DNA from: Lachnospiraceae bacterium AC2028
GTDB taxonomy: Bacteria > Bacillota > Clostridia > Lachnospirales > Lachnospiraceae
DNA length: 64,000 bases
Direction of reading: 5' to 3'
Assembly (NCBI GenBank): GCA_000702685.1
Contig: JNJD01000008.1
Span: 137,223-201,222 of the forward strand
Under the pieces are notes generated by a model, which did no database searches, was not told the DNA's origin, and saw only the letters and a list, made by a program, of their open reading frames with translations. The position numbers and the translations under genes are program-made. Positions 58,960 through 64,000 of this stretch are shown piece by piece (within the stretch, counting starts at the first letter, position 1; each line of letters begins with the position of its first letter).

Positions 58960-60315
58960 ATGTCACAGAAACAGTTTGACGATCTCAGAAAACTTTACGA
59001 TACATTTGAATACAGAAAATATGAGATGAGAACGGAGGACGGATTTCTTTTCGTAAGATTCAGGTTCTCCATTCCCGGTCTCAGAGATTTCATGCCCGAG
59101 TGGAAATTCCCTCTCGGAGAAAGAGACGTTGATCTGAACGATCCTATCCTCAGAGCTCTCGTATTCAATCTGGGACTTGTCGAGACGATAAGCTATTACA
59201 AGGCCGTATGTCCCGAGAAGGTTGTCATCAAGTGCGGTTCTCTTTCCGCTTCCCAGATGGACTGGTGGAAGAAGCTCTACTACAACGGACTCGGTGAATT
59301 CCTTTACAGGAACGGCATCACGGTTTCCAAGAGCAGACTCGTAAGATTCGAGTGCGCCACTACAACGGATGATGAACCTGCCGTTCTTCATGACGAAAAG
59401 ACTTATTCGGGATGTCTCGTTCCCGTCGGCGGCGGCAAGGATTCCGTCGTAAGCCTTGAGATCTTAAAGGGTGAGGATATCACGACATACGTTGTCAATG
59501 AAAATGCCACTGCGACCAATGTCATCGAAAAGTGCGGTCATAAGAAGGGCGTTTATACAGCTAAGAGAACTCTCGATGCGGAGATAATCAGACTGAACGA
59601 AGAGGGATATATGAACGGGCATATTCCCATCTCCGCGGTATTTGCTTTCTCGGCCGTCATCACCGCATATCTGTGCGGATTCAAATACATCGCTCTTTCG
59701 AATGAGACAAGTGCGAATGAAAGCACCGTACCCGGAACCAAGGTTAATCACCAGTACTCAAAGAGCTATGAATTCGAAGAGGATTTCGATGAATATATCG
59801 AGGGAATAACCGATTCGGACATTCATTATTTCTCACTCTTGAGGCCTTTCACCGAAGCCCAGATCGCCGCGATATTTGCCGCAAAGGGTAAGGATTACTA
59901 CGGAGTGTTCAGATCCTGCAACAGGGGAAGCAAGAAGGGCATATGGTGCTGCTCATGTCCCAAGTGCCTCTTCGTATATATCATCATGAGTCCCTTCATC
60001 GAAGAGGATGAGCTTGTGAAGATATTCGGAGAAAAGCTTCTCGACAAGGAATCTCTGGATAAGGATTTCAGGGAACTTGTAGGACTTGATGAGAACAAGC
60101 CTTTCGAATGCGTAGGAACAAGAAGTGAAGTTGCCGCATGCCTTCAGGCTTATATCGAGAGCGGCAAGAAGAGCCTCCTTACGGACAGATATGACAAAGA
60201 GATCGCAGGGCTCCGTACCCAGCCTCTTTCCGGGCTGATGAAGGAGTGGTGCGATGAGAATTGCGTTCCCGAAGTGTTCATTCCAAGGCTTAAGGAAGCA
60301 CTTGCGGAACTGTGA
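58960..60315 (+). CDS. murL: MurL-like UDP-MurNAc-L-Ala-L-Glu epimerase
   Basis: 451 residues, the length of MurL. An ATP-pyrophosphatase P-loop-like PVGGGKDSVVSLE (near residue 150) and a Cys pair in CCSCPKC (near residue 330) are visible. NETSANESTVPG and RSCNRGSKKG are also family blocks. MurL, described in Xanthomonas, uses ATP to convert the terminal L-Glu of UDP-MurNAc-L-Ala-L-Glu to D-Glu, acting after MurD2. Here a MurD-type ligase with atypical motifs begins at 63104, which supports the assignment. The identification rests on my recall of the family, without an alignment. Confidence 0.78.
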   Translation: MSQKQFDDLRKLYDTFEYRKYEMRTEDGFLFVRFRFSIPGLRDFMPEWKFPLGERDVDLNDPILRALVFNLGLVETISYYKAVCPEKVVIKCGSLSASQMDWWKKLYYNGLGEFLYRNGITVSKSRLVRFECATTTDDEPAVLHDEKTYSGCLVPVGGGKDSVVSLEILKGEDITTYVVNENATATNVIEKCGHKKGVYTAKRTLDAEIIRLNEEGYMNGHIPISAVFAFSAVITAYLCGFKYIALSNETSANESTVPGTKVNHQYSKSYEFEEDFDEYIEGITDSDIHYFSLLRPFTEAQIAAIFAAKGKDYYGVFRSCNRGSKKGIWCCSCPKCLFVYIIMSPFIEEDELVKIFGEKLLDKESLDKDFRELVGLDENKPFECVGTRSEVAACLQAYIESGKKSLLTDRYDKEIAGLRTQPLSGLMKEWCDENCVPEVFIPRLKEALAEL

Positions 60316-60395
60316 TATCCGGGCTTGCCGACGAAACAGCTTGCAGGGGCCGGCAGTGTCTGCGATTGAACGATCAAAATTTATCCAGAAATAAA

Positions 60396-60432
60396 AAGTG
60401 TCCCGGACAGTCATGATCTGTCCGGGACTTTA
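60396..60432. terminator. bidirectional terminator between murL and the L,D-transpeptidase
   Basis: GTCCCGGACAG pairs with CTGTCCGGGAC around TCATGAT, flanked by AAAAGT and ACTTT. The minus-strand U-run is longer (ACTTTTTATT), so the terminator mainly serves the minus gene. Confidence 0.85.
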
Positions 60433-60479
60433 TATTATACGGAGTCTCAATTATGGAGACGCCGTGTAGAACGGGATTA

Positions 60480-61460
60480 TCATCCCGCTATTGTTACGAG
60501 TGTTCCGTCGGGAACGGTGTTGTAGAGCCACATAGCATCTTCAACGGAAAGTCTTACGCATCCGAGTGAAGCCTTGCTTCCGAGTGCCGCAACTTCCTCG
60601 GGGATGGGAAGAAGATCGCCCTTCTTGGCGAAGCATACGGAGTGGAACATATATCCGCCGGTTCTGAATCTCATTCCCCATACCGCCCAGGTTCCGTCAG
60701 CCATATATACCCAGCCGCCGCCTGCGGTGTGCTCATAGATGGTGAAGGTTCCGCCGGGAGTTCCGTGTCCGGCTCTTCCGGTAGAGCAGAGCATGCTCCT
60801 TATGAGCTGTGAATAAGTTCCGTCGGGACCTACCGCAAGAACGTTACATACATTATAGGTACGGTCGACAACTATATAATAAGGTGATCCGTTGCAGGGA
60901 AGTCCGGTGGGGAAGTATACTCCCTCTTCAGTGGCAGCGGTTCCGGGCTTGGTCTGAATGGCGGGATCGGGCTGAGTGGCAGCAGGCTGAGCTGCTGCGG
61001 GAGCTCCCGTTGAAGGAGCGAGTCCGTTGGGTACGCCGTTTCTGTCCACGGTATGTACGTAGGAAGCATTGGGGCGTCTGAGCTCGCTTCTTCCCGAAGT
61101 GATGTAATGGGCAAAGAGCTTATTGGCATCCGTACCGTATACAGCGGCTACATCGGGATAGGTGGCTGCATAATACGCAGCATCGAACCAGTTAGGATCC
61201 GCGGCGGGCTTTCTTCCTTCGTTAACGCCGAGATTTCTGTAATGGAACCACATAGCGTTATCGAGACCACCCATAGCCTGGATATTGGGAGCGAATGCAT
61301 TATATACATCGGGATAAACCGTTGCGTAGTACTCGGCATCGAACCAGATCGGAGTGGTTGCGGGGAGCGAAGTGTTTGCTGCCTGAGCTCCGGTCTTCGG
61401 CATAAGTACGGCAAATGCTGTGATCGCCAGTGTTATCAGCATTTTTTTGAAAATTCTCAT
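60480..61460 (-). CDS. secreted L,D-transpeptidase (YkuD domain) with two repeat modules
   Basis: 326 residues from ATG 61460 (AAGGAAAG upstream); 32 codons of open frame above it lack a start signal. A signal peptide (about 1-26) is followed by two 40-47-residue repeats, each with WFDAxYYAxxYPDV and HYxxxGxxEGR-like ends (about 40-130). A Pro/Ala-rich linker leads to the YkuD domain (about 195-326) with the HS and SLGCVRL catalytic Cys motif. It makes 3-3 peptidoglycan cross-links or attaches proteins. It is convergent with murL. Confidence 0.9.
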   Translation of the reverse strand: MRIFKKMLITLAITAFAVLMPKTGAQAANTSLPATTPIWFDAEYYATVYPDVYNAFAPNIQAMGGLDNAMWFHYRNLGVNEGRKPAADPNWFDAAYYAATYPDVAAVYGTDANKLFAHYITSGRSELRRPNASYVHTVDRNGVPNGLAPSTGAPAAAQPAATQPDPAIQTKPGTAATEEGVYFPTGLPCNGSPYYIVVDRTYNVCNVLAVGPDGTYSQLIRSMLCSTGRAGHGTPGGTFTIYEHTAGGGWVYMADGTWAVWGMRFRTGGYMFHSVCFAKKGDLLPIPEEVAALGSKASLGCVRLSVEDAMWLYNTVPDGTLVTIAG

Positions 61461-61509
61461 AAATAAAATCTTTCCTTGTTTTTTCTGTCTGTTTTCTTTT
61501 GCAGGGTTA

Positions 61510-61538
61510 AATTTACCATTAATCGGCCAAAAACTCAA
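61510..61538 (-). promoter_or_regulatory. candidate promoter of the L,D-transpeptidase
   Basis: On the minus strand TTGAGT (61538-61533), 17 bases, TAAATT (61515-61510). Confidence 0.4.
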
Positions 61539-61600
61539 TAAAATCGGGCTTTTCAAACTTTAAGATTTACTTAAGATTCACTATATATAGTATGTTGAAC

Positions 61601-61629
61601 TTGTAAACACCACAATCGGATACTATAAT
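61601..61629 (+). promoter_or_regulatory. promoter of the DUF3048 lipoprotein
   Basis: TTGTAA (61601-61606), 17 bases, TATAAT (61624-61629). The same hexamers and spacing serve the MurD-like gene at 63035. A GTATGT/ACATAC hairpin (61637-61653) lies in the leader. Confidence 0.7.
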
Positions 61630-61671
61630 GTGTAATGTATGTAAGAGACATACTATGGAGGAAATTTTGTT

Positions 61672-62877
61672 ATGAAAAAAAATAAACTGATAAGTCTGGC
61701 TCTCGTAGCCGCTATGACCGTATCGATCATGGCAGCATGCGGACAGGAAGATGCTCCCGCACAGCAGGAAGGCGGATTCCAGTCACAGCCCATCGTATCC
61801 GTTGATGACAGCGGAAACCAGACCACACCCGTTGCTGATACAGATCAGACCGAGACCTTTGAAATGCCTGCTGACTGCTATGCTTCGGAACTTACCGGTC
61901 TTCCCGTACCCAAGGAGATCAAGGACCAGCGTCCCATCGCTGTAATGGTAGATAATGAGAAGACAGCTCTTCCTCATTACGGCATCGGTGAATGCGATAT
62001 CGTTTACGAGCTTATGAACTCAACCGCTAACGATCGTGTCACCAGACTTATGTGCATCCGCAAGGACTGGAACAATCTTGAGCAGATGGGAAGCATCCGT
62101 TCCACACGTCCCACCAACATCCCTCTTGCAGGTGAGTACAATGCGATTCTGATCCATGACGGTGGCCCCATCTACATCAACGACTTCATCTCAAAGCCTT
62201 ACTGCAATCACATTTCCAGCGGTTTCTGGAGAGCAGATAACGGCAAGGGATGGGAGTATTCCGAGTATGTTACCGGCGATGACCGTGAGGGAGTAAGACT
62301 CGGCGGAGGAACCCAGATGTATCCCGGACTTTCAAATTACATTGCAAAGCAGGGAATCTCCACCACCTACAATTCATACGCTCCCATGCGTGACAGCCAC
62401 TTCCTTATCAGACCTTACGGCACCGATATGACTCTCACCGAGATGGGTTATTCGAACGCTACATCCGCAACCCATATCCAGATGCCTACTTTAAAGCACA
62501 CTCAGACTGAGCTTAAGTACAACGAATCAACCGGCACCTATGATTATTACCTCTACGGAGAGCTTCAGAAGGATGCAGAGGATGATCAGGTAGTTACTTT
62601 CGAGAATGTCCTTCTCCAGTGCACCGATTATTATGAGTACGATGATCACGGATACCTGATCTATCTCTACTTCAACCAGACCGATACCACCGGCTACTAT
62701 ATCACCAACGGCCAGGCTATCAAGGTTACCTGGAATAAGGCTGTAAGCAACGACAAGCTCGACTACGAGATCACCAAGTTCTATGACGAGAACGGTGACG
62801 AGATTCAGATCAATCCCGGTAAGACTTACATCTGCCTTGTACCCAAGAACGGATGGAGCACCGTAACACTTAACTAA
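61672..62877 (+). CDS. DUF3048 lipoprotein (YerB-like)
   Basis: 401 residues. A lipobox at VSIMAAC (Cys about residue 23) predicts a membrane-anchored lipoprotein. The DUF3048 N-terminal domain (RPIAVMVDNE, YELMNSTANDRVTRLM, GSIRSTRPTN) and the C-terminal part (YFNQTDTTGYYITNGQAIKVTW) are both present. The biological function is not established. RBS GGAGGA is strong. It lies between two wall genes but on its own promoter. Confidence 0.88.
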   Translation: MKKNKLISLALVAAMTVSIMAACGQEDAPAQQEGGFQSQPIVSVDDSGNQTTPVADTDQTETFEMPADCYASELTGLPVPKEIKDQRPIAVMVDNEKTALPHYGIGECDIVYELMNSTANDRVTRLMCIRKDWNNLEQMGSIRSTRPTNIPLAGEYNAILIHDGGPIYINDFISKPYCNHISSGFWRADNGKGWEYSEYVTGDDREGVRLGGGTQMYPGLSNYIAKQGISTTYNSYAPMRDSHFLIRPYGTDMTLTEMGYSNATSATHIQMPTLKHTQTELKYNESTGTYDYYLYGELQKDAEDDQVVTFENVLLQCTDYYEYDDHGYLIYLYFNQTDTTGYYITNGQAIKVTWNKAVSNDKLDYEITKFYDENGDEIQINPGKTYICLVPKNGWSTVTLN

Positions 62878-62890
62878 AAATATACCTGAC

Positions 62891-62923
62891 AGTGAGTCAC
62901 GGGGACAGTCCCCGTGACTCACT
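62891..62923. repeat. GGGGAC/GTCCCC palindromic repeat (copy 5)
   Basis: A 16-base arm each side of a single A, with the GTCACGGGGAC core. Copy 6 lies 40 bases further on in the same intergenic region. Confidence 0.85.
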
Positions 62924-62930
62924 TTTTTTG
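62891..62930 (+). terminator. terminator formed by repeat copy 5
   Basis: GTGAGTCACGGGGAC, A, GTCCCCGTGACTCAC is a perfect inverted repeat (62892-62922) followed by seven T residues. It is the best-conserved repeat copy and doubles as the DUF3048 gene terminator. Confidence 0.88.
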
Positions 62931-62962
62931 TCTTAATTTGCGTCACGGCGGGCAGGATGTCC

Positions 62963-62995
62963 TTTGAGTCACGGGGACTGTCCCTGTGACTCAAA
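62963..62995. repeat. GGGGAC/GTCCCT palindromic repeat (copy 6)
   Basis: TTTGAGTCACGGGGAC, T, GTCCCTGTGACTCAAA. One G-U pair; otherwise perfect. Confidence 0.85.
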
Positions 62996-63034
62996 GCATC
63001 GGGTTTTTTCTTTGCCGTAAAACAGGGCATTTTG

Positions 63035-63063
63035 TTGTAAAAAAGCGGTATTTTGGGTATAAT
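63035..63063 (+). promoter_or_regulatory. promoter of the MurD-like ligase
   Basis: TTGTAA (63035-63040), 17 bases, TATAAT (63058-63063). Confidence 0.68.
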
Positions 63064-63103
63064 ACATAAGATTATGGGCATTTTTGCCCTGATGGGGAGA
63101 ATC

Positions 63104-64000
63104 ATGGCTGTACCCGAACTTTTTGAAGGCAAAAGAATAATTATCTGGGGCTACGGAAGAGAGGGCAGGTCCACCGAAAAATGGCTGTCCGAACACACCT
63201 CACCGAAGTCCGTTACAATATTTGAGGGAAAACCCGAAGAGATGCTCGCAGGAGCGGGCGAAGACGCAGATATCATCGTAAAGAGTCCCGGCATTGTCTG
63301 GCCTCCCAAAGATGCCGATAAAAGCATCTGCGATAAGATCAGTGCAAAGATCACTTCACAGACCGAGATCTTTTTACATGAATACCGTATGAAGACAGTC
63401 GGTATCACCGGAACCAAGGGAAAGTCCACGACGGTTTCGATGCTTGCCCACGTACTCGGTGAACTGTCGGGAAAGAAAGTCATACTTGCGGGAAACATAG
63501 GTCTTCCCTGTCTTGATTATTACGACGATGCGGCGGGAGATTCGATAGTCGTCCTCGAACTGTCCTGTCATCAGCTCAAGGATGCCAAGACCGCACCGCA
63601 TATTTCCGTATTCCTCGATCTGTATGAGGAACATCTTGATTATTACGGAACGATGGATGCGTATTTTGAAGCCAAGAGCCATATAATTACGCGCCAGATC
63701 CCCGGTGATAAAGCGTATATCGGTGAGAATGTTCCCGAGCTTATTTCGTGTTCCGACAAGATTAGAGTGGTTCCTTCCGAAGACGATCTTTCCGGAATAG
63801 AGCTTTCTCTTTTTGGGGACCATAATAAGATCAACGCATACTTCGTAGAGAAGATCTGCTGTGATGAATTCGGTCTGGCAAAAGAAGACGTACTGAAAAG
63901 CCTTAAGAACTTCGAAGCTCTTCCGCACAGAATGAAGAAGATAGGAGAGTTCGGCGGGATCGCATGGTACGACGATTCGATATCTACCATCCCCGAAGCT
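63104..64000 (+). CDS. murD: MurD-type UDP-MurNAc-L-Ala glutamate ligase, 5' part (cut by window)
   Basis: 299 codons are visible and the frame runs off the right edge. The Mur ligase N domain starts with IIIWGYGREGRSTEKWL. The P-loop GITGTKGKSTT (near residue 102), ELSCHQL and the EEHLDYYGTMDAY block are diagnostic of MurD. Before the edge, the motif normally read as DSKATNP appears as DSISTIP, and SS before FQL reads SC. These differences, and a murL gene 2.8 kb upstream, suggest a MurD2-type enzyme adding L-Glu rather than D-Glu. ATG 63104 follows GGGGAGA. Stereospecificity is inferred. Confidence 0.8.
   Translation, partial: MAVPELFEGKRIIIWGYGREGRSTEKWLSEHTSPKSVTIFEGKPEEMLAGAGEDADIIVKSPGIVWPPKDADKSICDKISAKITSQTEIFLHEYRMKTVGITGTKGKSTTVSMLAHVLGELSGKKVILAGNIGLPCLDYYDDAAGDSIVVLELSCHQLKDAKTAPHISVFLDLYEEHLDYYGTMDAYFEAKSHIITRQIPGDKAYIGENVPELISCSDKIRVVPSEDDLSGIELSLFGDHNKINAYFVEKICCDEFGLAKEDVLKSLKNFEALPHRMKKIGEFGGIAWYDDSISTIPEA

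Follow-up and report, generated by a model that had tools for sequence, protein, structure and literature searches.

Introduction

The closest described counterpart of the locus reported here is the MurD2/MurL route of Xanthomonas oryzae (XOO_1320/XOO_1319), as set out in the accessible portions of two reviews (PMC8788868, PMC5808125). There, MurL is reported to require ATP and to release AMP, and it is described as having no known conserved domains (PMC8788868, PMC5808125). The route is presented as limited to relatively few genera and is offered as a narrow-spectrum antibiotic target (PMC8788868), and low-similarity orthologues are mentioned in cyanobacteria, a fungus, and an amoeba (PMC5808125). 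Here, we analyze a pair of genes encoding a MurL-type protein and a MurD2-type ligase in a 64,000-nucleotide stretch of the gut bacterium Lachnospiraceae bacterium AC2028 (GCA_000702685.1, contig JNJD01000008.1; hereafter, this whole stretch is the window). The host genome comprises 2,772,364 bases in 14 contigs and is 99.63% complete.

An earlier note, made from the letters of the window alone, had proposed that this host uses, or can use, the Xanthomonas route, and our computational tests support that proposal. We put the probability at roughly 87% that the host makes its peptidoglycan D-glutamate (D-Glu) without free D-Glu, by a MurD2/MurL route. By analogy with the published Xanthomonas enzymes, the ligase would first add ordinary L-glutamate (L-Glu) to the wall precursor, and MurL would then invert the attached L-Glu in place to D-Glu, possibly via the adenylate step that the Xanthomonas authors propose. 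Four kinds of evidence point to this: homology and conserved residues, the pairing and fusion of the two genes, the lack of a recognized glutamate racemase gene (murI) in MurL-bearing genomes, and a confidently predicted PP-loop-like model of MurL.

Results

The MurL-type open reading frame (ORF) lies at positions 58960–60315 on the plus strand, encodes 451 amino acids, and is assigned by its match to NF041275, its conserved residues, and its structure model. At an E-value of 0.01, NF041275 (MurL) is the only NCBIfam match of this protein (E = 1.2e-81, 274.5 bits, residues 68–417). We located a PP-loop-like GGGKDS at residues 157–162, SCN at 319–321, WC..CPKC at 329–336, and KPFECVG at 380–386; the GGGKDS and CSCPKC motifs by which the earlier note had recognized MurL are therefore present. 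The MurL of Xanthomonas sacchari, whose source record is annotated murL-murD, scores 836.5 bits on the same model, above its cutoff, and is identical to the window protein at 135 of 434 aligned positions (31%). Across 97 sequences, 83 positions are conserved, and X. sacchari MurL is identical at 64 of these, bearing out the expectation that MurL residues would be found in an alignment.

The partner ligase gene, murD, begins with an ATG at 63104 on the plus strand; the window holds its first 299 codons (63104–64000), and the gene continues beyond the window to about 64360. Scored from residue 2 on, the ligase reaches 255.6 bits on TIGR01087 (murD, cutoff 212), as anticipated for a MurD-type enzyme, and a genome search returned it as the only MurD above cutoff in the host. 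Its placement as a MurD2-type ligase comes from this match together with residues 182, 319, and 348 and a phylogenetic tree. Numbered as in E. coli with Met1 left out, the residues of interest in the window ligase are Glu182, Ile319, Arg348, and Tyr416, compared to Glu, Ile, Arg, and Phe in X. sacchari MurD2. The block that usually reads DSKATN was correctly reported as DSISTI and extends to DSISTIP, compared to DSISTTP in X. sacchari.

These positions carry known functional weight. In the accessible text of the review, Glu197 and Arg358 of the X. oryzae (Xoo) MurD2, equivalent to E. coli 182 and 348, govern L-Glu use, and changing both to Asp and Lys gives D-Glu use; in addition, Lys319Thr makes E. 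coli MurD accept L-Glu (PMC8788868). Arg at 348 is also present in the MurD of S. mutans (PMC8788868), so this residue by itself is no marker of MurD2. Among 76 MurL-linked ligases, all had Ile319 and Arg348, with Glu182 in 59 and Asp182 in 17, and nine further ligases had Ile319 and Arg348 throughout, with Glu182 in eight. The same held within the host's genus, where 19 aligned ligases, including those of two genomes without MurL (G008 and G017), all had Ile319 and Arg348, with Glu182 in 13 and Asp182 in six, a caveat to the MurD2 signature at this position. By contrast, the 33 canonical MurD rows all had Asp182 and Lys348, with Lys319 in 32 and Gln319 in one, a signature that the window ligase does not share. 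Four more canonical ligases (L057, L059, L061, and L064) have the motif DSKGT and fell outside these residue counts through a motif filter. The invariant Ile319 looks like a sharp MurD2 marker, and it is unnamed in the accessible portions of both reviews (PMC8788868, PMC5808125).

The tree of 83 ligases, which took in 35 of the 76 MurL-linked sequences, separated the two types along a branch with support of 100/99. On one side were 32 canonical rows, including E. coli MurD; on the other, X. sacchari MurD2 was joined by 49 rows from the genus or linked to MurL and by one additional sequence (L070). The window ligase thus falls with X. sacchari MurD2 and not with canonical MurD, even though X. 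sacchari MurD2 sits on a long branch and its precise position is unsure. Overall identity was about equal in the two directions, at 110/390 to E. coli MurD and 120/405 to X. sacchari MurD2. The additional sequence (G035:C16:12444-13751) is a MurD on the MurD2 side with Asp182, Gln319, and Lys348, and murI adjoins it on the contig; it is perhaps an intermediate or a reversal.

We searched for murI (cutoff 146.65 bits) and for D-amino-acid transaminase (cutoff 277 bits). No murI was found above cutoff in any of the 24 genus genomes, the host included, compared to 15 of 16 genomes from other families of the order, nor in any of the 50 MurL genomes searched, which were drawn from the 80 loci described below. 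Two weaker matches in the host, considered as a hidden murI, resolved to amino acid/cysteate-type racemases (C7 and C13, discussed below). Across a family sample of 249 genera, MurL was present in 19 and murI in 212 (212 of the 230 genera without MurL), with no overlap, an exclusion with a hypergeometric probability of 1.3e-18 when kinship is ignored. The count of 19 includes three genomes (G578, G613, and G616) placed among six unlisted genomes without a murI match. In a phylum sample of 299 genomes, murI was above cutoff in 269 and MurL was detected in the host genome alone, so the route is uncommon at that grain.

Transaminase searches pointed to no other source of D-Glu above cutoff. None was found in the host genome, where the sub-cutoff match resolved to a branched-chain transaminase, and the best score in the genus was 39.2 bits. 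Likewise, none of the 249 family genera exceeded the cutoff, with 27 genomes reaching 200–264 bits, including two with MurL (G590 and G631). Eighteen family genomes had neither MurL nor murI above cutoff, three of which carried a 200-bit transaminase-like match. This leaves 15 of 249 genera with no MurL, no murI above cutoff, and no such transaminase-like match.

Within the genus, MurL was present in 20 of the 24 genomes; the 16 genomes from other families of the order had none. Two of the four genus genomes without it (G011 and G020) also lacked a MurD above cutoff, which suggests assembly gaps. In 17 of the 20 MurL-bearing genus genomes, MurL and the ligase were on one contig. For a wider view, we took the best 80 of at least 574 loci fitting genus-derived patterns, a set biased to near relatives. 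By record titles, 70 were Bacillota, nine Bacteroidota, and one Mycoplasma; many of these records are metagenome-assembled genomes, and errors in the names are possible. A MurD2-type ligase lay downstream of MurL in 76 of the 80 loci. Among these pairs, the two genes overlapped or were at most 48 bases apart in 73, were 2.7 kb apart in one genus member (L112), and formed a single ORF in two, a Eubacteriales and a Bacteroidia record (L142:1491-4223 and L188:5974-8676). Two of the four loci without the ligase ended right after MurL (L111 and L173), and two had other genes there (L168 and L183). No viral copies were confirmed among the viral contigs searched.

The predicted structure of MurL, built with an alignment of 40 sequences, was confident (AlphaFold pLDDT 94.7, pTM 0.92). 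Searching the PDB with Foldseek gave one match below E = 0.001, a chain of the QatB-QatC complex (9y02, E = 5.8e-5, probability 1.00), aligned over 431 columns with a TM-score of 0.40 and 15% identity. The next match was the PP-loop enzyme TtuA (E = 0.01), and a profile search also matched the SGGKDS loop of TtuA (E = 0.0005). By sequence, a single-protein search for a solved MurL structure gave no convincing match, and the profile search led to the TtuA PP-loop. The QueC Pfam model matched weakly in three of 40 MurLs. We take QatC to be QueC-like, and the SCN...WC..CPKC cysteines of MurL presumably resemble the zinc cysteines of QueC. A PP-loop-like fold, as modeled, would fit the ATP-to-AMP chemistry published for MurL and would fit adenylation. 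It offers a structural lead for an epimerase that both reviews, in their accessible text, describe as lacking known conserved domains. Our literature search, which had most subscription papers beyond its reach, returned no paper linking MurL with QueC or the PP-loop.

Several observations weigh against the MurD2/MurL reading, and we consider them alongside the alternatives that they might favor. First, the host genome encodes two aspartate/cysteate-type racemases. The C7 racemase is above cutoff both on TIGR00035 (amino acid racemase, 205.6 bits) and on the cysteate racemase model CuyB (213.8 bits), and its gene is flanked by one for a MurE-like ligase and one that is ATP-grasp-like. The C13 racemase is just above the TIGR00035 cutoff (94.1 vs. 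93.1 bits), and certain members of this racemase class are broad. D-Glu could therefore come from one of these two enzymes, with the ligase a diverged D-Glu-adding MurD and MurL in another role or spare. However, C7 (32.0 bits) and C13 (24.9 bits) are far below the glutamate racemase cutoff, and any match to the murI model occurs in only 13 of 24 genus genomes, with racemase matches similar to that of C7, compared to 20 of 24 for MurL. This alternative also leaves both the constant Ile319 and Arg348 of MurL-linked ligases and the exclusion between MurL and murI unexplained, and we regard it as unlikely. In its own right, the C7 cluster (L047:5-3335, G000:C7), with an ATP-grasp-like gene (weak match), the amino acid/cysteate-type racemase, and the MurE-like ligase (TIGR01085, 263 bits), is reminiscent of a D-Asp branch or some other unusual residue in the wall.

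Second, a search for MurD in 19 MurL genomes returned a second MurD, at 383–433 bits, in seven (G480, G487, G631, G066, G085, G086, and G088). This would favor a reading in which the MurL pair is real but serves another glycopeptide or an accessory precursor and not the main wall. Yet the host genome and 12 of the 19 have only one MurD above cutoff, which must therefore serve the wall there. Conservation across the genus also fits an essential step, making an accessory role quite improbable.

The genomes with two MurDs may instead record how a MurD2/MurL route came to replace murI. Six of these second MurDs were aligned, and all have canonical residues; no recognized murI was found in those genomes searched. 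The canonical MurD of G631 and those of G487/G066 are in different clades of the tree, with a genome that has murI as the neighbor in each case, a pattern that points to two or more independent replacements of murI. One further genome (G064, locus L149) carries a MurI-like frame (L191:1459-2286) that scores 108 bits against the cutoff of 146.65 and has ADGH in place of the GCTH found in all 14 aligned MurIs, so that the second catalytic Cys is lost; the alignment does not include L037, which a motif filter removed. This frame, which follows a gene resembling ddl by eye, is likely a relic, possibly of replacement, albeit in one genome.

Third, NF041275 is an equivalog named for Xanthomonadales with a cutoff of 700 bits, and at 274.5 bits the window protein falls below it and is not assigned to that equivalog; we therefore term it MurL-type. 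The other three non-Xanthomonas proteins scanned were also below this cutoff. Moreover, a lone plasmid homologue from Pseudonocardia alni scores 323 bits, more than the window protein, with 53 of the 83 conserved MurL positions. Because such lone homologues outscore the window protein, the NF041275 score alone proves nothing. The Pseudonocardia plasmid genes (L213:3764-5164 and L214:3857-5251) adjoin WD40-repeat genes, and no MurD was among the listed neighbors in these two stretches, which represent two of the three Pseudonocardia matches. The fold match to QatC is modest as well, given its TM-score and identity. Nevertheless, it is scarcely credible that the protein has another function, as a PP-loop enzyme of the QueC/QatC kind, and is MurL-like only in outline, because the best PDB fold match to QatC and the mere 31% identity to X. 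sacchari MurL stand against 64 of 83 conserved positions, a partner ligase, and a gene order in common with X. sacchari MurL, two fusions that link MurL to the ligase, and no match to any PADLOC defense model. A defense role for MurL was thus considered and set aside.

Finally, G008 (91% complete) and G017 (80%) carry a ligase with Glu182, Ile319, and Arg348 and have no MurL match. Downstream of murD is a gene of chemotaxis receptor type in G008, and the one in G017 looks alike. A search for a MurL remnant adjoining the ligase found none in either genome. The missing MurL may reflect assembly gaps or real loss.

In the window, two other genes lie between the MurL gene and murD. One, at 60480–61556 on the minus strand, encodes an L,D-transpeptidase (YkuD, PF03734, E = 4.4e-15); judged by eye, a start at 61460, ahead of the signal-peptide-like MRIFKKM, seems likelier. 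The other, at 61672–62877 on the plus strand, encodes a DUF3048 protein (PF11258, E = 1e-32; PF17479, E = 2.6e-23). The earlier note had counted the L,D-transpeptidase as a second wall-modifying activity at this locus. The gene is real, but it is on the opposite strand, the DUF3048 gene, which the earlier note left unmentioned, also intervenes, and a link of the L,D-transpeptidase to the route is unsupported. In seven genus genomes (G003, G005, G006, G009, G013, G014, and G015), MurL is directly upstream of MurD, and the two intervening genes are therefore a trait of part of the genus. Membership of the DUF3048 protein in the D-Glu route likewise lacks support.

Pattern scans, which do not demonstrate function, found a terminator-like hairpin 3' of the DUF3048 gene (62891–62923, plus strand) and a promoter-like TTGTAA-17-TATAAT upstream of murD (63035–63063, plus strand), although promoter-like sites were not above chance (six found vs. 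7.0 expected in shuffles). Because these two elements precede murD, the MurL gene and murD may be transcribed separately in the window lineage. The hairpin is the first of two copies of a GTCCCCGTGACTC-type palindrome at 62891–62995, downstream of the DUF3048 gene.

Discussion

Our analysis places a known route, with good support from sequence, in phyla where the accessible text of the reviews (PMC8788868, PMC5808125) does not put it. The route appears wider than described there, and it comes with gene fusions, intermediate states, and a lead on the fold. Neither Clostridia nor Bacteroidota is named there, in a literature search conducted mostly without subscription papers, the discovery paper included, so a published account may exist. 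With clearly less confidence than for the host itself, we lean toward a broader reading in which gut Clostridia and Bacteroidota have repeatedly acquired the racemase-free route, now widespread among them, in place of murI. Its intermediate states would include a canonical second MurD kept after murI loss and a MurI relic that lacks the second catalytic Cys, and in two lineages it would have been condensed into a single MurL-MurD2 protein. MurL would then be a QueC/QatC-like PP-loop enzyme that inverts a stereocenter via an acyl-adenylate. If the route does operate in many gut Clostridia and some Bacteroidota, drugs targeting it would strike commensals that MurI inhibitors would fail to reach. 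The standard model's label of D-Glu ligase would also be wrong for the MurD in these genomes.

Compared to the canonical MurI and MurD, the proposed route leads to the same product with a ligase of the same Mur family. However, the window ligase differs at residues 182, 319, and 348 and in its tree position, and no murI is above cutoff. Among PP-loop enzymes, MurL resembles QatC in its modeled fold, TtuA in its loop by profile, and QueC in weak Pfam matches, but its partner and presumed substrate differ. The route as a whole is most like the Xanthomonas MurD2/MurL system, with which it shares both proteins, the order MurL then MurD, the Glu/Ile/Arg residues (in X. sacchari), and no recognized murI. 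Still, MurL is only 31% identical, and the genes are separated in the window lineage and fused in two others. Moreover, the review, in its accessible portions, names gammaproteobacteria, alphaproteobacteria, and actinobacteria, whereas the pairs described here are in Bacillota and Bacteroidota.

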